Shown: in pieces, positions 1-20,690 of the stretch
How the letters are laid out: each line of letters opens with the position of its first letter
How positions within the stretch are numbered: the first letter of the stretch is position 1
Source of the DNA: an uncultured Dysosmobacter sp.
GTDB taxonomy: Bacteria > Bacillota > Clostridia > Oscillospirales > Oscillospiraceae
Assembly: GCA_934504065.1 (NCBI GenBank)
Contig: CAKSVQ010000025.1
Location: 1 to 21,392 of the forward strand
Length of the DNA stretch: 21,392 nt
Direction: 5' to 3'
Made by a program: the position numbers and the translations under genes
The notes under the pieces: generated by a model
What the model saw: only the letters and a program-made list of their open reading frames with translations
Told to the model about the DNA's origin: nothing
The model's database searches: none

Positions 1-1403
1 AGCGCCACTTCCACGTTGAACCGGCTCTTCAGCTTGCTGACCAGCACATCCACCTGCATATCGCCGGCGCAGGAGAGCACCATCTGGTGGGTCTCGGCGT
101 TGTTGGTCACCGTGAAGGAGGGATCCTCCTCGTTCAGGCGGTTCAGGCCCTGCGCGATCTTGTCATCCTGTCCGCGGGTCTTGGGGGCGATGGCCACGGA
201 ATAGCAGGGCTCGGCGAAGGGGATATTCTTCAGCGCCACCACCTTGCGCGGATCGCACAGGGTATCTCCGGTCTTCACCTTGTCCATCTTGGCCACAGCG
301 CCGATGTCGCCGCAGCTGAGCTCCTTGACCTCGGTGGCCTTCTTGCCCCGCATGACATACAGGCGGCCCAGCTTTTCCGTGTTTCCGGTGCGGCTGTTCA
401 CCACGGGCAGGTCGGCCTTGATCTCGCCGGAGAGCACCTTGATAAAGGAATACTTGCCGTACTGGTCGGAAACGGTCTTGAACACAAAAGCCGTGGGCAC
501 GCCGCCGGGAGAGACCACAAATTCCTCGGTCTCGCCGTCGGCACGGGTGGCCTTATGATAGTTGCCCTCCATGGGGTTAGGCAGCAGGTCCACAATATTG
601 TCCATCAGCATCAGGCTGCCAAGGCAGTTGATGGCGGAGCCGCACAGCACCGGGAACAGGCTCAGCTCCCGCACGCCCTGACGCAGACCCTGGATCATTT
701 CGGCATAGGTGAAATCCTCGCCGCCGAAGAACTTGTCCATAAAGGCCTCGCTGGTCTCGGCCACGGATTCCTTCAGCGCGTCGTTAAATTCGGTGACGAC
801 GGCGGCCTTGTCCTCAGGGATCTCGATCTCCACCCGCTTGAGATCCTGCATCTCATAGGCGCGCTTGTTCAGCACGTCGATGATCCCGGTGACCTTCTTG
901 TCCGCATCCCAGATGGGCACCACCACAGGGGCGATCTTCTTGCCGAAGCGCTCACGCAGCGCGTCGAAGGTGGCGTTATAGTCAGAGTTGTCTTCGTCCG
1001 TCTTGGAGATATATAGGAAGCGGGGCATATTGCGCTCTTCGCAGTATTTCCACGCCTTTTCCAGACCGACGGAGATACCGTCCTTGGCAGAGCAGACGAT
1101 AATGGCGGCGTCGGCGGCGCGCAGGGCCTCCATCACCTCGCCGGAGAAGTCAAACGCGCCCGGCGTATCCAGCAGATTGATCTTGCAGCCCTTATATTCC
1201 AGCGGGGCAACGGAAGTGGACAGGGAGATCTGCCGCTTCGTCTCCTCGGGATCATAATCGCAGACGGTGTTGCCATCCGCCACACGGCCCATCCGGTCGA
1301 TGGCACCGGTCATATAAAGCAGGCTCTCCGCCAATGCCGTCTTGCCGCTGCCGCTGTGGCCCAGCAGGCAGACGTTGCGGATGTTCTGTACTGAATAGCT
1401 CAT
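1..1403 (-). CDS. EF-G-like translation GTPase (EF-G2/FusA2 type), 3' end outside window
   Basis: The reverse strand is open from the ATG at 1403 to the window edge (467 codons; EF-G proteins are about 690). The start follows AAGGAG (1418-1413) at a 9-nt spacing. Visible GTPase motifs are the P-loop GHSGSGKT (residues 15-22), G3 DTPG (79-82) and a G4 position reading SKTD (133-136) instead of the usual NKxD. Switch I reads RQISLSTSVAPLEY rather than the RGIT of true EF-G. The GHSGSGKT loop and this switch I are typical of the EF-G-like paralogue family (EF-G2), not of the main translocase encoded in the str operon. It should be a cytoplasmic, ribosome-associated GTPase, but the paralogue's role is not well defined. 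It has no ribosomal-protein neighbours, which fits a stand-alone paralogue. Assignment to the EF-G superfamily is secure; the subfamily is likely. Confidence 0.93.
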   Translation of the reverse strand, partial: MSYSVQNIRNVCLLGHSGSGKTALAESLLYMTGAIDRMGRVADGNTVCDYDPEETKRQISLSTSVAPLEYKGCKINLLDTPGAFDFSGEVMEALRAADAAIIVCSAKDGISVGLEKAWKYCEERNMPRFLYISKTDEDNSDYNATFDALRERFGKKIAPVVVPIWDADKKVTGIIDVLNKRAYEMQDLKRVEIEIPEDKAAVVTEFNDALKESVAETSEAFMDKFFGGEDFTYAEMIQGLRQGVRELSLFPVLCGSAINCLGSLMLMDNIVDLLPNPMEGNYHKATRADGETEEFVVSPGGVPTAFVFKTVSDQYGKYSFIKVLSGEIKADLPVVNSRTGNTEKLGRLYVMRGKKATEVKELSCGDIGAVAKMDKVKTGDTLCDPRKVVALKNIPFAEPCYSVAIAPKTRGQDDKIAQGLNRLNEEDPSFTVTNNAETHQMVLSCAGDMQVDVLVSKLKSRFNVEVA

Positions 1404-1578: not shown

Positions 1579-1622
1579 CAAAAAAGAAAATGGCAGGCGG
1601 AGAGATACCTCTCCGCCTGCCA
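1579..1622 (-). terminator. Rho-independent terminator of the rlmB / P-type ATPase-like unit
   Basis: A perfect 14-bp stem (1591-1604 with 1609-1622, loop ATAC) is followed on the minus strand by TTTTCTTTTTT (1590-1580). It lies 33 bp beyond the stop codon at 1655. Confidence 0.9.
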
Positions 1623-1654: not shown

Positions 1655-3748
1655 TCAGGCCAGCAGCACCGGGATCAGCCACAGCAGCAAAAACGCCACC
1701 AGCGACAGCGGGGTGAACAGCTCATAGGCCCTCAGAAACACCAGATAAAACGCCAGCAGCGTGCCCGCCGCGCTGCCCAGCAGGGAAAGCTCCGCCGCCC
1801 GCCGGACGGATTTGCACATTCTCCGGCTGCCAGTGACCGTTTCCGCATAGGGCAACAGTCCCTCCCGGAACAGCAGCGCCCGGGGCAGGTCCCGGTCGTG
1901 CCCCGCCTCGCTGAGAGCCACCCGGCTGGTAAGGTCAGGATACTCCACCTTGACGCTTTTATGGAACTTGCGCTTGAGCAGCGCCGGGGTGATGTTGGGG
2001 TCCCGGGAGGCAAGGATCGGCATCACGCGGCTGCGGCGCATCATCCGCAGGGCGTAATCCACGTTTTCCGCAGGCTCGTATTTCACCGCGAACACCGCGA
2101 TGAGCTGCCGATCCACCGCCAGAAACACGCCTGTCTTCAAATTCACGTCTCCGGGCAGGCGCACCATCATCTTGCGCATGAACGAGGCGGTGCCCATCAG
2201 CACGGATTCGCCATGGATGGTGCCGGACCAGCCGCCCTCTTCAAAAAAGCTGAAGTCGTCCACGGTCTCCCGGCGGCTGTTTTCCTCCTTTGCAAGGGAG
2301 GTGAACAGCCGGGCAAGGCCGCTGTCGGCGCTGACCGCCATCGAGGCGGCATAGCCCAGCGCCGTGCGCCGCTCCTCGCCGTAAAACCGCTCGCCGTTAA
2401 GCCGCAGCGTTCCCGGTGGGAAGAGGTCGCTGTCCGTGACGATCATGGCCCGGCGGCGGCTGATCTTCACCGCCCCGGCCCAGCCGGCCACGGCGCAGCC
2501 CGTCTGCTGCAAGTGCCGCGCAAGGCGCGACCACGGCAGCGGCCAGCACAGCGGCAGGGCAAAGGTGCCCGCCGCCGCCAGAATGGCCGACCAGTTCAAA
2601 AAGAAATCTCCGCCCCGGCCCTGTCCCAGAGAGCTCAGGCCCGCAAAGACCACCGTGCCCACCAGCACCAGCGGCAAAAGCAGCGTCTGCCAGAGGGTGG
2701 AGGCATTGTCCTTCATGGCGGCGGTATAAAATCCGGGCACCGCGCCCTGCTGCTTGCAGGCGCCCCGGTCGGTATCCGTCACCAGATACGGCGGTTCATC
2801 GTCGATGGACGCCGCCCGGAACGTATCGTACATACCCCGGCACTCCCGGCACACGCCCCACTGGGCAAAGGCCAGCCCAAGACAGGCCGCCCCACCGTAT
2901 GGCATGACCGCCGTGCGGCCGCTGCCGAAAATACACACGGCGCAGTCCGCCGCCGCGGCCAGCGTGGAAAGAGAGATCAGGAGCTCACTGACGCACCGCT
3001 TCCGCAGCATCATCGTGGCCGCCTGCACAAATACGCCACTGCACAGCAGGGCGCACAGCGCAAGGCACGTTACGATCACGATGCTCTGAAACTGCACATC
3101 GCCGTTCCAAAGAGGGATCACGATACCATAGCGCTCCACTGCGGCCAGCGCCGTGGGGATCAGCGCGATCAAAAACGCGGGGATCAGCGTGGCGTGCCGG
3201 GCGCGATAGCGGGCAAGATAGTCCTGCGCCGCCTCGTCAAAGGGTTCCTCCGGGCCGATGGGCTCCACCTCCGGCTCGGGTTCCGGCTCCGGCGGGGTGC
3301 GCAACGTTTCCGTGTCCTCCAGCGGCCGCCGGGAAAACAATCCCCGCCGGGGCCGCAGCAGCGGCTCTCTCCGGTCGCCCATCACCGCGTCCACGGTGCT
3401 GCCCACCACTTCTTCCAGTGAAACGGGCTTGGGCGGAGTGGGCAGCTCCTCCGCGGGCGGCTCCGCCGGGTCGGGCACTTCCCCCGCGATCTCCGGCCCC
3501 CCGGTTTCTTCTTTTTTCTCTTCCGGCTCCGGCGGTGTTTGCTCCGCCCCGCCGGAGGGGACCTCCGGCTCCGGTTCCGTCCGTTCTTCCTCAGGCGGGG
3601 CCTTTTGCAGCGCCGCTGTCAGCGGCTCCGGCGTTTCGCCGCCGCCAAACTCCGCCAAAATCTCTTCCAGCGAATACTCCTCGCCCTCCGGCGGCACATC
3701 GGTCAGCAGAACGCCCCGCAGATCCAGCTCATCTTGTTTGTCAGACAT
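1655..3748 (-). CDS. Catalytically dead P-type (heavy-metal) ATPase-like membrane protein with Pro/Glu-rich N-terminal tail
   Basis: 697 aa from the ATG at 3748, 13 bp after the rlmB stop; an upstream ATG at 3787 would overlap rlmB. Residues 30-170 are acidic, Pro/Glu-rich and probably disordered. Eight hydrophobic segments follow (about 187-205, 221-245, 253-275, 280-298, 352-372, 385-405, 654-672, 676-696), with the two-two-two-two spacing of P1B metal pumps. The segment-six motif CPC is replaced by LCWP (400-403). The phosphorylation motif DKTGTLT aligns with DSDLFPPGTL (439-448). GWSGTIHGESVLMGTASFM (506-524) resembles the nucleotide-binding domain, and ASRD (580-583) stands where TGDN belongs. 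The actuator loop is only about 50 aa with no TGE, and GDGxND is absent. I infer a pseudo-ATPase: fold kept, transport chemistry lost. Its role is unknown (regulatory, scaffold or metal-sensing are possibilities). The family link comes from motif order and topology only. Confidence 0.72.
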   Translation of the reverse strand: MSDKQDELDLRGVLLTDVPPEGEEYSLEEILAEFGGGETPEPLTAALQKAPPEEERTEPEPEVPSGGAEQTPPEPEEKKEETGGPEIAGEVPDPAEPPAEELPTPPKPVSLEEVVGSTVDAVMGDRREPLLRPRRGLFSRRPLEDTETLRTPPEPEPEPEVEPIGPEEPFDEAAQDYLARYRARHATLIPAFLIALIPTALAAVERYGIVIPLWNGDVQFQSIVIVTCLALCALLCSGVFVQAATMMLRKRCVSELLISLSTLAAAADCAVCIFGSGRTAVMPYGGAACLGLAFAQWGVCRECRGMYDTFRAASIDDEPPYLVTDTDRGACKQQGAVPGFYTAAMKDNASTLWQTLLLPLVLVGTVVFAGLSSLGQGRGGDFFLNWSAILAAAGTFALPLCWPLPWSRLARHLQQTGCAVAGWAGAVKISRRRAMIVTDSDLFPPGTLRLNGERFYGEERRTALGYAASMAVSADSGLARLFTSLAKEENSRRETVDDFSFFEEGGWSGTIHGESVLMGTASFMRKMMVRLPGDVNLKTGVFLAVDRQLIAVFAVKYEPAENVDYALRMMRRSRVMPILASRDPNITPALLKRKFHKSVKVEYPDLTSRVALSEAGHDRDLPRALLFREGLLPYAETVTGSRRMCKSVRRAAELSLLGSAAGTLLAFYLVFLRAYELFTPLSLVAFLLLWLIPVLLA

Positions 3749-3761
3749 TCCGCGCACCTGC

Positions 3762-4529
3762 TTACATCCGCTGGCGGACTGCCTCATACAGCAGGATGGC
3801 CGCCGCCGCGGAGGCGTTCAGGGAATTGAGCTTGCCCCGCATGGGGATGCTCACCAGAAAATCGCAGTTTTCCGCTGCCAGACGGGTCATTCCGTCGCCC
3901 TCGCTGCCAATGACGATGGCGGCGGGGCCTTTCAGGTCCGCGTCGTACAGGGTGGTATTGCCGTCCGCCGCCGTGCCGAACACCCACACGCCCTGCTTTT
4001 TCAGGTCCTTCAAAAGCGCCGGGATATTGGGCACCCGCGCCACCGACAGATGGGCCACCGCTCCGGCGGAGGTCTTGGCCACCACGGCGGTCAGCCCCGC
4101 GCTGCGGCGCTTGGGGATGATGACGCCGTGGGCCCCGGCGCACTCCGCCGTGCGGATGATGGCCCCCAGATTGTGGGGGTCGGAGATCTCATCGCACACC
4201 ACCAGCAGGGGCTTTTCCCCCTTGGCCGCCGCGCTCTCCAGAATGCTCTCCACACTGACGTATTCCCGCACCGCCGCCAGCGCGATCACGCCCTGATGGG
4301 CGTGGGTGCGGCTCATATTGTCCAGCTTGCGGCGGTCGGCGTCCACCACCACGATGCCCGCCGCCCGGGCCTTGGAGGCGATGTGGCCCAGCGTCTTGTC
4401 CGTTTCGCCCTTGAGAATATAAATCTTGTCGATGCTCTCACCTGCCCGCAGGGCCTCGATCACGGCGTTGCGCCCTTCGATCACGCCGTCGGCCCCGGCG
4501 GTGAGTTCATTTTTCTTCTGTTCGTCCAT
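3762..4529 (-). CDS. rlmB: RlmB/TrmH-family RNA 2'-O-ribose methyltransferase
   Basis: A SpoU (SPOUT) methyltransferase of 255 aa, the family's normal size, transferring methyl from SAM to a ribose 2'-OH; RlmB acts on a guanosine of 23S rRNA. An N-terminal L30e-like RNA-binding domain (about 12-95) precedes the catalytic domain. The three SpoU motifs are present: DPHNLGAIIRTAECAGAHGV (117-136), the SAM-loop GSEGDGMTRL (208-217) and IPMRGKLNSLNAS (228-240), containing the conserved Arg and Asn. I chose ATG 4529 because GCGAGGA lies about 8 nt upstream; ATG 4535 leaves only 3 nt, and the far-upstream ATG at 4595 would precede the predicted transcription start. It is the first gene of a unit with the P-type ATPase-like protein. 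Family certain; the exact target nucleotide is inferred. Confidence 0.92.
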   Translation of the reverse strand: MDEQKKNELTAGADGVIEGRNAVIEALRAGESIDKIYILKGETDKTLGHIASKARAAGIVVVDADRRKLDNMSRTHAHQGVIALAAVREYVSVESILESAAAKGEKPLLVVCDEISDPHNLGAIIRTAECAGAHGVIIPKRRSAGLTAVVAKTSAGAVAHLSVARVPNIPALLKDLKKQGVWVFGTAADGNTTLYDADLKGPAAIVIGSEGDGMTRLAAENCDFLVSIPMRGKLNSLNASAAAAILLYEAVRQRM

Positions 4530-4643: not shown

Positions 4644-4672
4644 TTGTGACAGCGGCCGCTTTGTGATATACT
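4644..4672 (+). promoter_or_regulatory. ftsH promoter
   Basis: -35 TTGTGA (4644-4649), 17-bp spacer, extended -10 TGATATACT (TATACT at 4667-4672). Predicted start near 4679 leaves a leader of about 58 nt. The ribosome binding site AAAGGAG (4719-4725) sits 11 nt from the ATG at 4737, slightly longer than usual. The -10 region shares the 11-mer TGTGATATACT with the divergent rlmB promoter. Confidence 0.75.
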
Positions 4673-9554: not shown

Positions 9555-9605
9555 CATCTTAACATAGAAAACCCGTCTATGCAAATTCGGTCTTGGAGGA
9601 AGAAC

Positions 9606-10838
9606 ATGGAATATTTGACGTTAAATAACGGCGTGCAGATGCCGCTGGTGGGCTTTGGCACATTCATGCTCAGCGGCGAGGTCTGCGTAAGATCCGTCGC
9701 CGCGGCCATCGAAAGCGGCTATCGGATGATCGACACGGCAGAGGCCTACGGCAATGAAAAGGAGGTCGGCGAAGGCATTCGGCAAAGCGGCATGGACCGC
9801 GGAGAACTGTTTCTTGTCACCAAGGTAAACTTCAAATCCTACGAAAACGCGGAGCAGACCGTCATGCAGTCCCTTGCCAACTTACAGACCGACTATATCG
9901 ACCTGCTGCTTCTGCACTGGCCCTTTGCCAACTACTATGCGGCGTGGCGTGCGCTGGAAACGCTGTACGAGGGCGGCAAAGTCCACGCCATCGGCGTTTC
10001 CAACTTTGAGCCGGACCAGCTTCTCGATTTGATCGCCTACAACAAGGTCATTCCGGCAGTGAACCAGATCGAAACCAACCTTTACTGCCAGCGCAGCCCA
10101 GAGCGCGGCTGGATGGACAAAAAGAACGTGGCCCACATGGCCTACGCGCCGCTGGGGCAGGGCAATCGAAATGAAATGTTCAGCGAATCGGCTGTACTGG
10201 CACTTGCCGAAAAATACGGCAAAACTCCGGCGCAGGTCCTGCTCCGCTTCCTGACGCAAAAGGGCATCGCCGTCATCCAAAAGCTGCTATCTGACACAAA
10301 CTGTCATCTCACCCTGTTCGCCCGCCACGCAAAGGATGTGTACGCCGACACGGACCGCATCACCGCAGTCAACGGCGACGCTGGAAATCCCGAAGACCTG
10401 AAAGCGGTCCTGCCCGGGCAGGATGTGGTCTACTGCGCCATTTCCGGCGACGCGCTGCCGCAAATTGCGGAAAATATCGTGGCGGCCATGGAGGAGCGGG
10501 GTGTGGAGCGGCTGATCTTCATGGCTGCCGTGGGCATTTACAATGAGATTCCAGACGAAATAGACGGCGAGGATAATCTGGACAACGAGCCTGCCCAAAT
10601 CCCCAACCGCAGGGCGGCGGATGTTGTGGAAACAAGCAGCCTGAACTACACGATCCTCCGTCCCGGCTATCTGGGCGAGGGCGGCGAGGATGAGTGCGTT
10701 CTCACGTGCAAGGGCGAAGCGGCCAGGGGCTATACCACGCCCATTCCGGCGCTGGTGAAATTCGTGGTGCGGCTCATTCTGAACGAGAACCTCTATGCAA
10801 GGCAAAGCGTCAGCATCACGCGGGACGTCTCTAAATAA
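9606..10838 (+). CDS. Chimeric oxidoreductase: truncated aldo/keto reductase fused to truncated NAD(P)H-binding Rossmann protein
   Basis: 410 aa from ATG 9606, chosen because GGAGGA (9595-9600) lies 5-7 nt upstream; the upstream ATG at 9579 has no such site. Residues 1-224 are an aldo/keto reductase with the full catalytic tetrad Asp43, Tyr48, Lys73 and His104 (LLLHW) and the YAPLGQG segment (180-186). Such proteins are about 275-280 aa and should continue VIPKS plus a tail that binds NADPH phosphate; here the sequence changes at VIQ (223-225). From KLLSDTNCHLTLFARHAK (226-243) to the end it matches NAD(P)H-binding SDR-like (NmrA/YhfK-type) proteins, including IYNEIP (311-316) and LNYTILRPGYL (346-356), but lacks their first beta strand and GxxGxxG loop. 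An in-frame deletion between two adjacent genes is the simplest explanation. Both cofactor sites look incomplete, so activity is doubtful. Confidence 0.82.
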   Translation: MEYLTLNNGVQMPLVGFGTFMLSGEVCVRSVAAAIESGYRMIDTAEAYGNEKEVGEGIRQSGMDRGELFLVTKVNFKSYENAEQTVMQSLANLQTDYIDLLLLHWPFANYYAAWRALETLYEGGKVHAIGVSNFEPDQLLDLIAYNKVIPAVNQIETNLYCQRSPERGWMDKKNVAHMAYAPLGQGNRNEMFSESAVLALAEKYGKTPAQVLLRFLTQKGIAVIQKLLSDTNCHLTLFARHAKDVYADTDRITAVNGDAGNPEDLKAVLPGQDVVYCAISGDALPQIAENIVAAMEERGVERLIFMAAVGIYNEIPDEIDGEDNLDNEPAQIPNRRAADVVETSSLNYTILRPGYLGEGGEDECVLTCKGEAARGYTTPIPALVKFVVRLILNENLYARQSVSITRDVSK

Positions 10839-11028: not shown

Positions 11029-12143
11029 CTTGGATTGTCAAGTTAAGTGCAACACAAGGCCAAAAAAGACCTCAAAGGGAGACTTCCAGTTCAGGCATTT
11101 GCGGGGACGAAAATTAATTTTGTTGACGACATCCGTAAGATACTCAACGGAAACATTATCAAAAGATGTCCCTTTTGGGAAATACTGCCTCAGGAAACCG
11201 TTGGTATTTTCGTTAGTCCCTCTTTGCCACGGTGAACAGGGGTCGGCAAAATAGAATGGAACACCATGCAGGGCAGTGCTTACTTCTCGATGCTTTGCGA
11301 ACTCATGCCCCTGGTCGGGTGTTATGCTTCGTAGCTTCTCGATGGGAATCTGGCCGAACATACGGATCATGGCGTCTCTGACTGCTTCCGAAGAGCCATT
11401 CGGAACCTTGGCCGCCAACAGGTAGCGGCTTTTCCTGTCCACCTGTGTAACAAACCGCGCGCCACCCTTTCGACCTTCTACTGTATCGCCCTCCCAGTGT
11501 CCCAGTTCGCTTCGCAGTTTGGCCGCTTCCGGGCGTTCAGAAATCCCGTGGGGTATCTCATATTGCCCCTGTTTGTTGACTTTTCCGTTCGCTTTGCGCG
11601 GCTTCCCTTTTCTGCGCAGATGGAATGCGCAGCGGTCAGCTTTTCGGATGTGGCTCAGCGCTCTTCCATCCATCAGGCCATTTTTTAAAGCACGATAAAT
11701 CGTGGCAGCGCTGATTTTCAGCGGATTTTTCTCCTGTCTTAACCGATTTTCGATCTCATCTGGCGACCATTCCCTGCAAAGCAGTTCTCGAACGAGTTTC
11801 AGGTTTTCGTCATTCGCTAAAATCGGCTTACAGCCGCAGTTCTTCTTGCTCCGCTTGTAGCGGCGTTGGGCTCTCGATGGGCTATATGGTCTGTGGCTGA
11901 CTTTGTTGCGGATCAATTCCCGGCTGATTGTCGATGGTGCGCGGTTCAATTCTCCCGCGATTTGGCGGATACTCTTTCCCTGATTGATACCCAGGTATAG
12001 ACTTTCTCGCTCTTCTATGTTAAGGTGTTTGTAGTGGATCACAGGGTTTCCCTCCTTCTGGTTGTCCGCAAACACCATTTTAGTGAAGGATTCTCTGTGA
12101 GTCCACTTCTTTTTTCATGTTGCACTTATATTGTAATTCCAAG
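11029..12143 (-). mobile_element. IS30-family insertion sequence inserted in the dispersed repeat
   Basis: 1115 bp. Imperfect terminal inverted repeats of 26 bp (11029-11054 and 12118-12143, 21 of 26 matching) begin CTTGGA and share AAGTGCAACA. A 3-bp duplication, ATT, flanks it (11026-11028 and 12144-12146), within the 2-3 bp range of the IS30 family. The spacer this leaves between the two repeat halves is 12 nt, exactly as in the uninterrupted copy at 16591-16765. It carries one intact transposase on the minus strand and is visibly more AT-rich than its surroundings. Confidence 0.88.
11038..12042 (-). CDS. IS30-family DDE transposase
   Basis: Cuts and joins the ends of its own element. I start it at GTG 12042 (334 aa) because AAGGAGG lies 8 nt upstream and the protein then begins (V/M)IHYKHLNIEERESLYLG, the usual IS30 opening; the ATG at 12078 has no ribosome binding site. 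An N-terminal helix-turn-helix (GKSIRQIAGELNRAPSTISR, about 22-41) binds the ends. The catalytic residues are Asp186 (GHWEGDTVEG), Asp243 (TPDQGHEF) and Glu278 (GTNENTNGFLRQYFP), the last in the classic IS30 motif. It is full length, and its stop codon (11038-11040) lies inside the left inverted repeat. It appears intact and potentially active. Confidence 0.93.
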   Translation of the reverse strand: MIHYKHLNIEERESLYLGINQGKSIRQIAGELNRAPSTISRELIRNKVSHRPYSPSRAQRRYKRSKKNCGCKPILANDENLKLVRELLCREWSPDEIENRLRQEKNPLKISAATIYRALKNGLMDGRALSHIRKADRCAFHLRRKGKPRKANGKVNKQGQYEIPHGISERPEAAKLRSELGHWEGDTVEGRKGGARFVTQVDRKSRYLLAAKVPNGSSEAVRDAMIRMFGQIPIEKLRSITPDQGHEFAKHREVSTALHGVPFYFADPCSPWQRGTNENTNGFLRQYFPKGTSFDNVSVEYLTDVVNKINFRPRKCLNWKSPFEVFFGLVLHLT

Positions 12144-12204: not shown

Positions 12205-14097
12205 TTAGTCCAGCTCCAGCTGCCCGGTATATAGCTGATAGTATCGGCCATGCTGGGCAATAAGGTCGTCGTGGTCGCCCCGCTCAATGATGCTGCCCTG
12301 CTCCAAAACCATGATGGCCTTGGCATTGCGGACAGTGGACAGGCGGTGAGCAATGACAAACACGGTCCTGCCCGCCATCAGGCGGTCCATGCCCCGCTCG
12401 ATCAGCTTTTCCGTCCGGGTATCGATGGAGGAGGTGGCCTCGTCAAGGATCAGCACCGGGGGATCGGCGCAGGCCGCCCGGGCGATGTTCAGAAGCTGCC
12501 GCTCGCCCTGACTGAGACTGCCGCCCCCGCTGGTAAGTACCGTTTGATACCCCTGCGGCAGGTGGCGGATAAAGCTGTCCGCCCCCGCCAGACGGGCAGC
12601 GGCCTCCACCTCTTCCTCCGTGGCGTCCAGACGGCCATAGCGGATGTTGTCCGCCACCGTTCCGGTAAAGAGGTGAGTATCCTGCAGCACCGCGCCCAGT
12701 GAATGGCGCAGGGAGTCCTTGGCAATGTCCCGCACATCGATGCCGTCATAGGTGATGGTGCCGGACTGGATCTCATAAAAACGGTTGATGAGGCTGGTGA
12801 TGGTGGTCTTGCCCGCTCCGGTGGAGCCCACAAAGGCGATCTTCTGCCCCGGCTTTGCGAAGAGGGATACGTCATGCAGGATGATCTTGCGGTCGTCGTA
12901 TCCGAAGACCACATGGTCAAAGCGCACGTCGCCCCGTAGCTCTGTCAGCGTGCCGTCCGGCTTTTTCCACGCCCACGTTCCGGTGGACGCGGCGGTTTCG
13001 GCCAGCGTGCCGTCCGGCTTCTTTTCGGCGCAGACCAGCGTCACCTTACCCTCGTCCACTTCCGACTCCGCCTCCATGACCTCAAACACCCGCTCCGCGC
13101 CGGCCACGGCGGAGAGAATGGTGTTCACCTGCTGGGAAATTTGAGTAATGGGCTGGCTGACCTGCCGGGTATACTGCAAGAAGGCGGCAAGCCCGCCCAG
13201 ATCCCCGGTACGGATGGCCAGCAGCGCACCCACGCAGCAGGTCAGGGCATAGTTGATGTGGCTGAGGTTGCCCATGGCGGGCATCATTGCGCCGGAATAT
13301 GCCTGCGCTCTCGTTCCGGCGTCGCGGTAGGTCTCGTTCAGGCCCCGGAAGCCCTCCTTGGCGGCATCTTCGTGGTTAAAGACCTTAATAACCTTCTGGC
13401 CCTCGATCATCTCTTCAATATAGCCATTCACCGCGCCGATGGCCTTTTGCTGGTCGGCAAAATAGCGGCGGCTGCGGCTGCCGATGACCTTGACCACCCC
13501 CAGCATCACCAGCAGCATCAAGGCGGTGATCCCGGTGAGGATGGGGCTGAGCACCAGCATCATCACGATCGTGCCCACAAAGGTCAGCGAACAGGAGATC
13601 AGGCTGGCGAAGCTGTTGTTCAGCGCCTCGGAAACGGTCTCAATGTCGTTGGTATAGCGGCTCATCAGCTCGCCGTGGGTGTGGGTGTCGAAAAACTTCA
13701 GGGGCAGCTTCTGCATCCGGCCAAAGAGGTCGGCGCGGAGAGAGGCCACCGTGTTCTGCGCCACGTGCACCATGATGCGGGCATAGCCGTAAGAGCACAG
13801 CGCCCCGGCAAGATACACCAGCGCCATCACGCCCAGCATTCTGGCAAGGCCGCCAAAGTCACCGGGCAGGATATAGTCGTTGATCAGCGGGCGGATCAGA
13901 TAAGAGCCCGCCACCGAGCAGGCAGAGCTGACCACCAGCAGCACGACCACCACGCAAAGATGCGCCCTGTACCTCCCCAGATAGCGCATCAGCTTGCGCA
14001 GCGTGCCCCGAAGATCTTTGGGCTTGCGGAAGCCCCCTCGGGGACCGCCGGGGCCTCCCGGCCCCCGTCCCGGGCCGCGTCTTGTATTCTCAGCCAC
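12205..14097 (-). CDS. ABC exporter half-transporter with the competent ATP site (second subunit of heterodimer)
   Basis: 630 aa: a Gly/Pro/Arg-rich N-terminus (1-27), six-helix membrane domain (about 45-335), then a nucleotide-binding domain. Walker A GSTGAGKT (424-431), signature LSQGE (528-532), Walker B VLILDE (548-553) with the catalytic Glu553, and switch His584 are all present. It overlaps the upstream ABC gene by 8 bp. Paired with that subunit, whose ATP site is degenerate, it matches the layout of heterodimeric multidrug exporters (BmrCD, LmrCD, TM287/288). The linker between domains (345-390) is about 40 residues longer than usual and contains KKPDGTLAE and KKPDGTLTE (359-367, 378-386) from an in-frame duplication. 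The substrate is unknown; drug or lipid export is inferred from the MarR partner. Confidence 0.94.
   Translation of the reverse strand: MAENTRRGPGRGPGGPGGPRGGFRKPKDLRGTLRKLMRYLGRYRAHLCVVVVLLVVSSACSVAGSYLIRPLINDYILPGDFGGLARMLGVMALVYLAGALCSYGYARIMVHVAQNTVASLRADLFGRMQKLPLKFFDTHTHGELMSRYTNDIETVSEALNNSFASLISCSLTFVGTIVMMLVLSPILTGITALMLLVMLGVVKVIGSRSRRYFADQQKAIGAVNGYIEEMIEGQKVIKVFNHEDAAKEGFRGLNETYRDAGTRAQAYSGAMMPAMGNLSHINYALTCCVGALLAIRTGDLGGLAAFLQYTRQVSQPITQISQQVNTILSAVAGAERVFEVMEAESEVDEGKVTLVCAEKKPDGTLAETAASTGTWAWKKPDGTLTELRGDVRFDHVVFGYDDRKIILHDVSLFAKPGQKIAFVGSTGAGKTTITSLINRFYEIQSGTITYDGIDVRDIAKDSLRHSLGAVLQDTHLFTGTVADNIRYGRLDATEEEVEAAARLAGADSFIRHLPQGYQTVLTSGGGSLSQGERQLLNIARAACADPPVLILDEATSSIDTRTEKLIERGMDRLMAGRTVFVIAHRLSTVRNAKAIMVLEQGSIIERGDHDDLIAQHGRYYQLYTGQLELD
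12946..13020. repeat. 18-bp direct repeat inside the ABC linker
   Basis: CAGCGTGCCGTCCGGCTT occurs at 12946-12963 and 13003-13020, 57 bp apart, a multiple of three. It encodes the repeated KKPDGTL motif in the interdomain linker. Confidence 0.95.
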
Positions 14098-15826
14098 CGA
14101 TGCTCACTCCTTCCTGTTGGGATTCATAGACCTCGCGGTAGATCGCGCAGGTCTTCAGCAATTCTTCATGGGTGCCCTGGGCCGCCACCGCGCCGCCGTC
14201 CATCACAAGGATCACATCGGCGTCCATCACCGAGGTCACCCGCTGGGCGATGATCAGCTTGGTGGTGTCCGGCAGCAGCTCCCGGAACGCCTTGCGGATC
14301 TTCGCGTCCGTGGCGGTATCCACCGCGCTGGTGGAGTCATCCAGGATCAGCACCTTCGGGCGCTTGAGCAGCGCCCGGGCGATGCACAGCCGTTGTTTCT
14401 GCCCGCCGGAGACGTTCACACCGCCCTGCCCCAGGTCGGTATCCAGCCCGTCGGGCATCCGCTCCAGAAACTCGTCGGCGCAGGCGGCGCGGCAGGCCTG
14501 CCACAACTCTTCCTCCGTGGCGTGCTCATCGCCCCAGAGCAGATTTTCCCGGATGGTGCCGGAAAAGAGGGTGTTCTTTTGCAGCACCACGCTCACGCTG
14601 TCGCGCAGGTGCTCCATGGTATAGTCCGCCACAGGCCGTCCGCCCACCTGCACCGTACCCTTCTGCGCCTCATACAGCCGGGGGATCAGGCTCACCAGCG
14701 TGGTCTTGCCACTGCCGGTGCCCCCCAGAATGCCCACGGTGGCGCCGCTGGGAATGTGCAGAGACACATCCTGCAGCACCCACTCCGGGCTGCTCTCATG
14801 ATACTTGAAAAACACATGGTCAAAGTCGATGCTGCCGTTTTCCACCGTTGCGTCGGCCTTGGCCACAGCGTCCGTGATGGCGGGGCGCTCCTCCAGCACC
14901 TCCACGATGCGGCGGGCGCAGGCGATGGAGCGGGTCATCATCATGAACATCATGGACACCATCATCAGCGACATCAAGATCTGGGTAATATAGGTGAAAA
15001 AGGCCGTCAGGTCGCCCACAGGCAGCGTTCCGGCATAGACCATCTTGCCGCCGAACCACATCACCGCGATAATGGTGCTGTAAATGATCAGCATCATCAC
15101 CGGCATATTGATGACCACCATGCCGAAGGCCCGCATGGAGCTTTCCTTCAAGGCGTTGTTGCGCCCCGCAAACTTCTCTTCCTCATGGCCCTCCCGGACA
15201 AAAGACTTCACCACCCGGATGCCCGTGAGGTTTTCCTGCACCACCAGATTCAGCGCATCCGTGCGCTCCTGCAAAGACCGGAACAGCGGCCCCGCCTTGG
15301 TGAGGATCACCGCGATGAACACCGCCAGAAGCGGAATGGCCACCAGAAACACGTTGCTAAGCTGGCGGCTCAGGCGCATGGACAGCACCAGCGCCGCCAC
15401 CAGCATCACAGGTGCCCGCACCAGAAGCCGCATGCCCATCATCAGCGTCATCTGCATATTGTTCACATCGTTGGTCAGCCTGGTCACCAGCGACGCGGTG
15501 GAGAACTTTTCAATGTTGGAAAAGGCAAAGCTCTGGATGTGCTCATACTCCGCCCGGCGCAGATTGGCGCCGAAGCCCTGCCCGGCAATGGAGGAAAACA
15601 CCGCACTGCCCACACCAAAGCTCAGGGACACCAGCGCCATGCACGCCATCAGTGCGCCCTTGTGCAGGATATAGCTTTGGTCCCCGGTCTCAATGCCGAT
15701 GTTGACGATGTCCGCCATCACCAGCGGGATCAGCAGCTCGAACACCGCCTCCGCCGCGCTGCACACCACGCCGCAGGCGATCCACTTGGAATACGGCCTC
15801 ATATGGGGCCAGAGTTTTTTCATCAT
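14090..15826 (-). CDS. ABC exporter half-transporter with degenerate ATP site (first subunit of heterodimer)
   Basis: 578 aa: six-helix membrane domain (about 15-300) and nucleotide-binding domain. Walker A GGTGSGKT (368-375) and signature VSGGQ (472-476) are intact, but Walker B ends VLILDD (492-497), so the catalytic Glu is Asp497, and the switch position reads IIAQR, with Gln528 for His. Both changes are the known signature of the non-hydrolysing subunit in heterodimeric exporters such as TM287/288 and BmrCD. Its ATG overlaps the marR stop (ATGA, 15826-15823), and its own end overlaps the next ABC gene by 8 bp, so all three are translationally coupled. It should pair with the 12205-14097 product to export drugs or amphiphiles. 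Confidence 0.95.
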   Translation of the reverse strand: MMKKLWPHMRPYSKWIACGVVCSAAEAVFELLIPLVMADIVNIGIETGDQSYILHKGALMACMALVSLSFGVGSAVFSSIAGQGFGANLRRAEYEHIQSFAFSNIEKFSTASLVTRLTNDVNNMQMTLMMGMRLLVRAPVMLVAALVLSMRLSRQLSNVFLVAIPLLAVFIAVILTKAGPLFRSLQERTDALNLVVQENLTGIRVVKSFVREGHEEEKFAGRNNALKESSMRAFGMVVINMPVMMLIIYSTIIAVMWFGGKMVYAGTLPVGDLTAFFTYITQILMSLMMVSMMFMMMTRSIACARRIVEVLEERPAITDAVAKADATVENGSIDFDHVFFKYHESSPEWVLQDVSLHIPSGATVGILGGTGSGKTTLVSLIPRLYEAQKGTVQVGGRPVADYTMEHLRDSVSVVLQKNTLFSGTIRENLLWGDEHATEEELWQACRAACADEFLERMPDGLDTDLGQGGVNVSGGQKQRLCIARALLKRPKVLILDDSTSAVDTATDAKIRKAFRELLPDTTKLIIAQRVTSVMDADVILVMDGGAVAAQGTHEELLKTCAIYREVYESQQEGVSIGG

Positions 15827-16284
15827 AGGTTTCGATCCTCCTCCAGATTCCCGATCACACGGATCAGCAGCGCCCGCAGCGCAGTGACCTCCTCTGTCGT
15901 CAGTCCCCGCACCATCATCTCCTCGCCCTGCCCGAAGGTGGCGCTGATGCTGCTTTGCAGCCGCCGCCCCTTTTCCGTCAGGCTCACCCGCTTTTGCCGC
16001 TGGTCCGCCGGGTCGGCGGCGCGCAGGATCAGGCCCTTTTCCTCAAGGCGCTCTAAAATGCCGTTGGCCGTGGGGGGCTTGACCCGCAGATGCTCCACCA
16101 CCGCCCGCTGGGGCGTGGGCTTTTGCTGCCCGCCCAGATACAGCAGCACGTGGGTCTGGGCCGGGGTCACATCAAAGCGCCCAAGGCGGGCGTCCATCCG
16201 TTCCCGGGCAAGGTGCGCCGCATGGCCCAGCAGCGGCCCCAGCGGCGCGTTTTCCCAGCCAAGTCTTTCACATGGGTGTTCCAT
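15823..16284 (-). CDS. MarR-family repressor of the ABC exporter operon
   Basis: 153 aa, normal for MarR, a dimeric winged-helix regulator released from DNA by phenolic or drug ligands. The helix-turn-helix and wing are in VTPAQTHVLLYLGGQQKPTP (39-58), RAVVEHLRVKPPTANGILER (60-79) and the wing DPADQRQKRVSLTEKGRRLQ (91-110), whose D-R...K...LT-G pattern is diagnostic. GGAGGA lies 6 nt before the ATG at 16284. It is the first gene of the operon and shares 4 bp with the first ABC gene. Two identical operator-like repeats overlap its promoter, so autorepression of the whole operon is likely. Confidence 0.94.
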   Translation of the reverse strand: MEHPCERLGWENAPLGPLLGHAAHLARERMDARLGRFDVTPAQTHVLLYLGGQQKPTPQRAVVEHLRVKPPTANGILERLEEKGLILRAADPADQRQKRVSLTEKGRRLQSSISATFGQGEEMMVRGLTTEEVTALRALLIRVIGNLEEDRNL

Positions 16285-19576: not shown

Positions 19577-19987
19577 ATGCCATACACCACGAAACAGCGC
19601 CGGGCCGTTCTCCACTGTCTGGAGGGCGGCGAGGCCCTCACCCCCGGCGAGGTGGCCGAGCGCCTGCGCGGCGTCGGAAGCCCGGTGGGGCTGGCCACGG
19701 TCTACCGCCAGCTGGAGCAGCTGGCCTCCGCCGGGCAGGTGCACTGCATCCAGACCGGAGAGGGCGCGCTGTACCAGTACTGCCCCCACCCCCATCCGGC
19801 GCACGGCTGCTTTTTGCTGCGCTGCCGCCGCTGCGGCCGGGTGGACCATCTGGATTGCAGCCATTTGCAGACCCTGTGCGACCATCTTTCCGCCGACCAC
19901 GGCTTTCTGGTCGATCCCCGGCAGACTGTGCTGACCGGGCTTTGCAGCGCCTGCGCCAGAGAGGAGGAAGCCCATGGGACCCACTGA
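19577..19987 (+). CDS. Fur-family metal-responsive repressor (Zur-like by context)
   Basis: 136 aa, typical of Fur proteins: dimeric repressors that bind a 7-1-7 operator when loaded with metal. A winged helix fills residues 1-75, with GLATVYRQLEQLASAGQVHC (38-57) containing the recognition helix signature. The dimerisation half has two CxxC pairs (CRRCGR near 83-88 and CSAC near 125-128) for the structural zinc, and His residues in the HPHPAHGC and HLDCSHLQTLCDHLSADH regions for sensing. AAAGGAG (19563-19569) precedes the ATG. Its end overlaps the ATPase gene by 14 bp. The znuCB-like partner genes suggest zinc (Zur), but the box resembles Fur sites, so iron or manganese are not excluded. Confidence 0.93.
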   Translation: MPYTTKQRRAVLHCLEGGEALTPGEVAERLRGVGSPVGLATVYRQLEQLASAGQVHCIQTGEGALYQYCPHPHPAHGCFLLRCRRCGRVDHLDCSHLQTLCDHLSADHGFLVDPRQTVLTGLCSACAREEEAHGTH

Positions 19988-20690
19988 ACTGATCGTCTGT
20001 CGGGACGTATCGCTGGGATACGAGGGCCAGACCATCGTCCACCACCTGAATCTCACCGTACGCAAGGGGGACTACCTGTGTGTGGTGGGCGACAACGGCT
20101 CCGGCAAATCCACGCTGATGCGGGGACTTCTGGGCCTGCTGCCGCCCCAGAGCGGCGAAATCCTCCGTGCCCCGGAGCTGCGGCAGGGCGCGGTGGGGTA
20201 TCTGCCCCAGCAGACCCGGGCGCAGAAGGACTTTCCCGCCACGGTGATGGAGGTGGTGCTCTCCGGCTGCCTCAACCGCGCTGGCTTCCGCTTTTTCTAT
20301 TCCGCCGCACAGAAAGCCGAAGCGCTGATGAACCTGGGCAAGCTGGGCATTCTGGAGCTGAAGGACCAGAGCTACCGGGACCTTTCCGGCGGGCAGCAGC
20401 AGCGGGTGCTGCTGGCCCGGGCGCTGTGCGCCGCCAGCAGTCTGCTGATCCTTGACGAGCCCATCACCGGGCTGGACCCCGCCGCCGCGCAGGACCTTTA
20501 CAAGACCCTGCGCTATCTCAACCGGGAGGAGGGCATGGCCGTGGTAATGGTGACCCACGACCTGCGCGCCGCCCTGCGCAGTGCCAAAAGCGTGCTGCAC
20601 ATCGGCCGCCGGGGCGACCTGTTCTCTGGCACGGTGGAAGACTATCTGGCCTCCCCCCAGGGGCGGCGCTTCCGGGAGGTGGAACCGTGA
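19974..20690 (+). CDS. znuC: ATPase subunit of a zinc/manganese-type metal ABC importer
   Basis: 238 aa, the size of ZnuC/MntB-type ATPases that power divalent metal import from the cytoplasmic face. Walker A GDNGSGKST (39-47), Q-loop (LPQQ, 77-80), signature LSGGQ (137-141), Walker B LLILDE (157-162) and switch His195 are all intact. GLDPAAAQDLYKTLRYLNRE (166-185) is typical of this subfamily. AGGAGG 6 nt before ATG 19974 lies within the end of the regulator gene, and the stop overlaps the permease start (GTGA), so the three genes are coupled. Zinc is the likeliest substrate; manganese or iron is possible. Confidence 0.92.
   Translation: MGPTELIVCRDVSLGYEGQTIVHHLNLTVRKGDYLCVVGDNGSGKSTLMRGLLGLLPPQSGEILRAPELRQGAVGYLPQQTRAQKDFPATVMEVVLSGCLNRAGFRFFYSAAQKAEALMNLGKLGILELKDQSYRDLSGGQQQRVLLARALCAASSLLILDEPITGLDPAAAQDLYKTLRYLNREEGMAVVMVTHDLRAALRSAKSVLHIGRRGDLFSGTVEDYLASPQGRRFREVEP

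Follow-up and report, generated by a model that had tools for sequence, protein, structure and literature searches.

We describe a P1B-type pseudo-ATPase, a protein that keeps the fold of a heavy-metal pump without its catalytic residues, encoded in a 21,392-nucleotide (nt) stretch of DNA from an uncultured Dysosmobacter sp. (contig CAKSVQ010000025.1; "the window" means this whole stretch). Because the fold is kept without catalytic residues and under purifying selection, its status as a pseudoenzyme is well supported. We favor, at a probability of roughly 0.45, the reading that it is a retained derivative of a CopA-like P1B ATPase which would serve as a membrane scaffold, with a motif in its tail that docks a cytosolic partner. 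An earlier reading of the window from its sequence (the original prediction) had placed the gene at the correct coordinates; it reads on the minus strand, and its start codon at 3748 is backed by a homologue of 697 amino acids (aa) that is 99% identical. The gene is divided as follows.

1655..3748, minus strand: pseudo-ATPase gene P0001, P1B type, 697 aa
3242..3748, minus strand: disordered cytoplasmic tail, residues 1-169, with 38 Glu and 32 Pro
1658..3241, minus strand: core, residues 170-697, with eight transmembrane (TM) helices and the P and N domains

Structure prediction indicates that the protein has a genuine CopA-like P1B ATPase fold. The model, with a predicted local distance difference test (pLDDT) score of 90, shows a clear P-type core, in which eight membrane helices in the P1B arrangement are combined with cytosolic P and N domains. 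Foldseek matches it to CopA (E=3e-16), and the family profile reaches the copper ATPase 3rfu (E=2.4e-26). Homology is also detected by TIGR01525, which is matched by 31 of 49 family members at E<=0.01 and by the window core at 20.9 bits, against a cut-off of 346.25. Pfam holds no family of its own for the pseudo-ATPase. The original prediction had read eight hydrophobic segments with P1B spacing, which the model returns as membrane helices, and had named as its own refutation a structure with no haloacid dehalogenase (HAD)/P-type core, which is clearly present.

The motifs of the pump cycle are lost or altered at each of their places in the window protein.

2705..2806, minus strand: residues 315-348, a short hairpin at the place of the actuator domain, without TGE
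2540..2551, minus strand: residues 400-403, LCWP, at the place of the metal-binding CPC of TM helix M4
2420..2437, minus strand: residues 438-443, T438 followed by DSDLF, at the place of DKTGT
2000..2011, minus strand: residues 580-583, ASRD, at the place of TGDN, with the Asp alone kept
1859..1867, minus strand: residues 628-630, REG, roughly where GDGxND is expected, in a stretch that does not align to pumps

The gap between TM4 and TM5 measures about 34 residues, folded as a small hairpin instead of an actuator domain; the original prediction had rightly found no TGE there and had put the loop at about 50 aa. The residues that it quoted for CPC (LCWP), DKTGT (DSDLF, 439-443), and TGDN (ASRD) are all present, with two corrections to their reading. 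First, DSDLF is one residue out of register: HMMER and MAFFT alignments set the phosphorylated Asp of 23 of 23 pumps opposite T438, so that a Thr replaces this Asp and D439 stands at the Lys. The family signature at this place is D.DLFP.G. Second, the loss of TGDN is only partial: 20 of the 23 pumps have their Asp of this motif opposite D583, and only the preceding Thr-Gly is lost.

The same losses run through the family, which we followed in 153 distinct loci after removal of duplicates and ten intact pumps fetched with the same profile. Some of these loci are truncated at contig ends (L042, L048, L056, and L199 are shorter than 500 aa), and L176 and L199, from one genome (G266), may be two pieces of one gene; 57 carry organism names (Oscillibacter, Dysosmobacter, Oscillospiraceae, Clostridia, Clostridiales). 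GDGxND, already reported missing from the window protein, is found in 0 of the 153 loci, a few of them cut by contig ends, against 10 of 10 pumps. DKTGT and the SEHP-type N-domain motif are likewise present in all ten pumps and missing from the family: DKTG occurs in two loci (L112 and L113), in the tail some 976 residues before the end, and the HP-type matches of seven loci fall within the tail or the TM region. TGD-type strings (3/153) lie away from their site, as do eight CPC-type strings in seven loci, and no CPC, CPH, or SPC stands at the M4 site of the members compared. Among 175 homologues listed, none has DKTG or GDGxND. No homologue examined thus has an intact DKTGT or GDGxND, contrary to the scenario of one degenerate copy among intact relatives that the original prediction had named as refuting it, and by these comparisons motif loss is a trait of the family and not decay of one copy. 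Since the actuator domain, the DKTGT context with its phosphorylated Asp, the Mg-binding GDGxND, and a CPC-type ion site are all lacking, the pump cycle is impossible, and the protein is almost certainly not a pump.

Two other activities could be imagined for such a fold. Transport in some unorthodox way, such as a phosphorylation-independent ion pathway that is passive or gated by nucleotide, would suit the retention of all eight TM helices and of the N-domain fold, as well as the apparently good conservation of TM5-TM6 among close members. However, the M4 ion-site residues vary across the order, and the actuator domain that would couple nucleotide to the membrane is absent; we regard this route as improbable. 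A HAD-like phosphatase with DxDLFP as HAD motif I is a far more distant prospect. Much of the family retains its D.D, but the alignments of 23 pumps put this pair one residue beyond the pump Asp, the first D changes in distant members, and GDGxND is gone from every locus. With the nucleophile Asp out of register and the acidic residues of motif IV absent, this candidate was rejected.

To place the family, 394 genomes were drawn from the order of Oscillibacter valericigenes, which we take to be the GTDB Oscillospirales; NCBI places this species in the Oscillospiraceae, Eubacteriales. A wide profile matches 378 of them at E<=1e-40, a looser threshold adds six with full-length-type matches (G273, G261, G237, G332, G209, and G320), and G344 has the pseudo-ATPase behind rlmB, which brings the total to 385/394. 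In G030, the frame behind rlmB contains the tail motif described below and is cut by the contig end. Neither the family nor rlmB was detected in the remaining eight genomes; missing contigs would give the same picture, and this apparent co-loss was not used as evidence. Of 391 genomes sampled from the class (rlmB undetected at E<=1e-50 in 26), 17 have full-length matches (E<=3e-66), and all 17 are also in the order draw. The best match in the other 374 has an E value of 1e-32, and all 13 matches fetched from these genomes are intact pumps. Within the order there is one family match per genome, except for two pieces in G083. The match in G015 is split into two abutting pieces, L172 and L198 (G015:C45:25790-27441), possibly by a frameshift or an assembly error.

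The most divergent members of the family are 18% identical to the window protein. The core is under purifying selection, with ratios of nonsynonymous to synonymous substitution (dN/dS) of 0.04-0.19 across eleven pairs. When 49 members and 23 pumps are placed in one tree, the members part from the pumps with a support of 0.98, consistent with a single loss. That the window merely holds a decaying copy is scarcely credible: nothing was found in its favor, and the open frame, purifying selection, and order-wide conservation rule it out. The original prediction of a kept non-pumping derivative is supported, and the checks proposed with it, dN/dS and a homologue search, show selection on the core and conservation across the order of both the motif losses and the rlmB neighborhood.

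Ahead of the core lies the acidic Pro/Glu region that had been recognized at the N terminus, here delimited as residues 1-169 and modeled as disordered. In the full-length model, residues 1-160 have low confidence, save for two short helices, themselves of low confidence, at the two motifs of the tail.

3644..3676, minus strand: tail motif 1, YSLEEILAEFG, residues 25-35, low-confidence predicted helix 27-34
3380..3424, minus strand: tail motif 2, VSLEEVVGSTVDAVM, residues 109-123, low-confidence predicted helix 111-123

Tail motif 1 reads SLEEILAE(F/Y), with I30, L31, and E33 invariant in 33 full-length members, and a loose form of it is present in 114 of 138 tails, compared with 3.45 in shuffled tails. 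Tail motif 2 is found in closer members. The tail as a whole has a dN/dS of 0.11-0.47, and a conserved island in such a faster-changing region looks like a docking motif. We considered and rejected a docking motif used genome-wide: a DNA pattern for the motif, run on 15 genomes, matched the pseudo-ATPase place in seven, plus four apparent coincidences. This pattern is not exhaustive, as it missed the family gene in eight of the 15. The four other matches are presumably two sigma-54-type AAA proteins, a Y-family polymerase-like protein, and a short frame, and the motif looks private to the pseudo-ATPase family. Far longer disordered tails occur in L057, L110, L111, L117, L120, L121, and L122, whose proteins have 1161-1468 aa; L121, scanned whole, contains no Pfam domain.

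The surroundings of the gene are constant on one side. In the window, the neighboring features on its strand are the following.

3762..4529, minus strand: rlmB, 23S rRNA (guanosine-2'-O)-methyltransferase, directly upstream of the pseudo-ATPase gene
1591..1622, minus strand: intrinsic terminator, 14-bp stem plus T-tract, just behind the pseudo-ATPase gene
3..1403, minus strand: gene for a paralogue of elongation factor G (EF-G), truncated by the end of the window, downstream of the pseudo-ATPase gene

Only 13 nt separate the end of rlmB from the pseudo-ATPase gene. The unit with rlmB that the original prediction saw here recurs throughout the family: rlmB adjoins the gene upstream, on the same strand, in 128 of the 128 loci with at least 250 bp of upstream sequence, the stable adjacency that would be expected if RlmB is a functional partner. 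Two apparent misses (L005 and L129) are frame-extension artefacts, with rlmB overlapping the extended frame, and the other eight proved to be intact pumps. Other neighbors change. ftsH, divergent from rlmB in the window, lies nearby in 48 of the 57 loci with organism names and in only one of L058-L129, many of which are short stretches; L094 has citrate synthase and S-adenosylmethionine synthetase (gene names read by eye). EF-G paralogues were scanned in two full-length copies (L057:9444-11561 and L050:8752-10824), and both fit NCBIfam PRK12740.1-5 best and fall below the canonical EF-G cut-off. Of the clean promoter and terminator claimed earlier, the terminator is there, and the promoter is only half secured: a scan of the window found no minus-strand sigma-70 site, an extended -10 (TGATATACT) is visible by eye upstream of rlmB, and a good promoter match at 4644-4672 points toward ftsH. 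Rfam gave no match anywhere in the window.

What the rlmB linkage means is complicated by another order, some genomes of which have an intact pump where the pseudo-ATPase would stand. In three of 16 genomes of that order (G502, G475, and G524), the gene order is hom-thrB-lysC-rlmB followed by an intact CopA-like pump, with CPC, DKTGT, and GDGxND all present, and then by a gene that we take to be DUF711-like. The pseudo-ATPase loci L103, L106, and L107 have the same hom-thrB-lysC-rlmB block ahead of the pseudo-ATPase, and shorter versions stand in L110 (thrB-lysC) and L111 (lysC). The arrangement is rare: among the first 20 outgroup genomes it was found (within 1.5 kb) only in G502, and among 40 further outgroup stretches only in G475 and G524, which had been preselected for it, and in 0 of the 38 others. 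In other Clostridia (L237, L244, L252, L238, L255, and L268), rlmB is often followed by a presumably DUF711-like gene, with or without a CopA-like pump between them. Most simply, this would mean that a pump already linked to rlmB was disabled where it stood; the pseudo-ATPase may also have arisen by independent insertion behind rlmB. In the pump tree, the pumps linked to rlmB do not emerge as the closest relatives of the pseudo-ATPase (by profile score, L168 is second of 23 pumps, with L239 and L240 lower), and because the tree does not decide, gene order is what speaks for the in-place origin.

Since an intact pump has the same gene order in another order, the linkage can exist without the pseudo-function. 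It could be inherited gene order, or reflect shared growth-rate control, with the protein having an envelope role unrelated to RlmB. This is a serious competitor to the scaffold reading, at somewhat less than even odds. It has to contend with the persistence of the 128/128 adjacency among members as divergent as 18% identity while other neighbors were reshuffled, and with outgroup genomes, in which rlmB is followed by many different genes.

A different use of the membrane part would be as a regulatory subunit that tunes a transporter, an intact P1B pump or some other, by pairing with it in the membrane. Pseudoenzymes often regulate active relatives, and putative pump-type matches exist in the same genomes (for example, G017, G016, G063, G091, and G117). 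An intact P1B pump frame also lies in the flanks of two of the 153 loci (L016 and L098). In contrast, none was found in the flanks of the other 151, flank lengths varying, and the constant neighbor is rlmB; we consider this role unlikely.

The role of membrane-anchored scaffold or receptor fits best, because there is no catalytic or ion site, the membrane fold is kept, and the tail motif is conserved. In this scheme, the eight-helix membrane part with its P and N domains would be kept as a platform, from which the long disordered tail would present the short helical motif SLE-x-ILAE-F/Y, most likely docking a cytosolic partner. The constant linkage to rlmB and the frequent linkage to an EF-G paralogue direct attention first to ribosome maturation or translation as the source of the partner, with RlmB, 50S precursors, and the EF-G paralogue as leading candidates, although we hold it doubtful that the putative partner belongs to translation. 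Several observations weigh against the scaffold reading or parts of it. The intact pump behind rlmB in the three genomes above may mean that the linkage was in place before pumping was lost; only 57 of 132 loci have the EF-G paralogue at most 1.3 kb downstream; and the tail helices have a pLDDT of only about 50, with the loose motif missed in 24 of 138 tails. Motif loss also has loose ends: M4 of L050, L061, and L098 has CPL, the letters TGE occur near the actuator place in four of 153 loci (L101, L157, L180, and L185), which we take as chance, and the kept N-domain glycines and TGDN Asp may leave nucleotide binding possible.

Elsewhere in the window, a single open frame at 9579-10838 joins an aldo/keto reductase domain to an NAD(P)H-binding domain, by fusion or a misread boundary. 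A transposase with HTH_38 and an integrase core, which we take to be IS30-like, lies at 11038-12078 (minus strand), and a MarR-type regulator stands next to two ATP-binding cassette (ABC) half-transporters at 12205-16284 (minus strand). At 19577-20690 (plus strand), a Fur-family regulator overlaps an ABC ATPase gene, possibly a zinc-uptake locus.

The closest known systems are the P1B heavy-metal ATPases (CopA, ZntA, ATP7B; TIGR01525), which the pseudo-ATPase resembles in fold, eight-helix topology, P and N domains, and detectable homology. It differs from them in lacking the actuator domain, CPC-type site, DKTGT, GDGxND, and all of TGDN but the Asp, and in having a long disordered N-terminal tail with a helical motif. 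Bacterial pseudokinases have a different fold. Like the pseudo-ATPase, they are conserved bacterial pseudoenzymes, and they are little studied (PMC12599244). PMC6592433 describes a degenerate P4-ATPase domain in the alveolate guanylate cyclase PfGCbeta, likewise P-type with degenerate signature residues in a non-pump context; that protein is eukaryotic, of P4 type, and fused to a cyclase, whereas ours is a stand-alone bacterial P1B protein. The degenerate P-type domains met in the open-licence literature, represented mostly by the openings of abstracts, are eukaryotic, and searches there yielded no bacterial P-type pseudo-ATPase and no description of this family. Database labels, where given, read "hypothetical protein," save for one "cation transport ATPase." New here is a stand-alone pseudoenzyme of a pump that is near-universal in the order sampled.

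In its most far-reaching and unlikely form, the scaffold reading would have a copper pump linked to rlmB converted where it stood, throughout a whole order, into a membrane receptor that serves the translation machinery and is probably essential, its tail motif recruiting RlmB, its 50S precursor, or the neighboring EF-G paralogue to the membrane. If true, this would be a membrane-tethered module for ribosome maturation or translation control that other bacteria lack. Together with the intact pump found at this position in another order, the pseudo-ATPase may allow a before-and-after comparison of how a transporter gives up transport for a different job, and the order-wide conservation of a protein without an assigned function points to an overlooked basic process in these bacteria.
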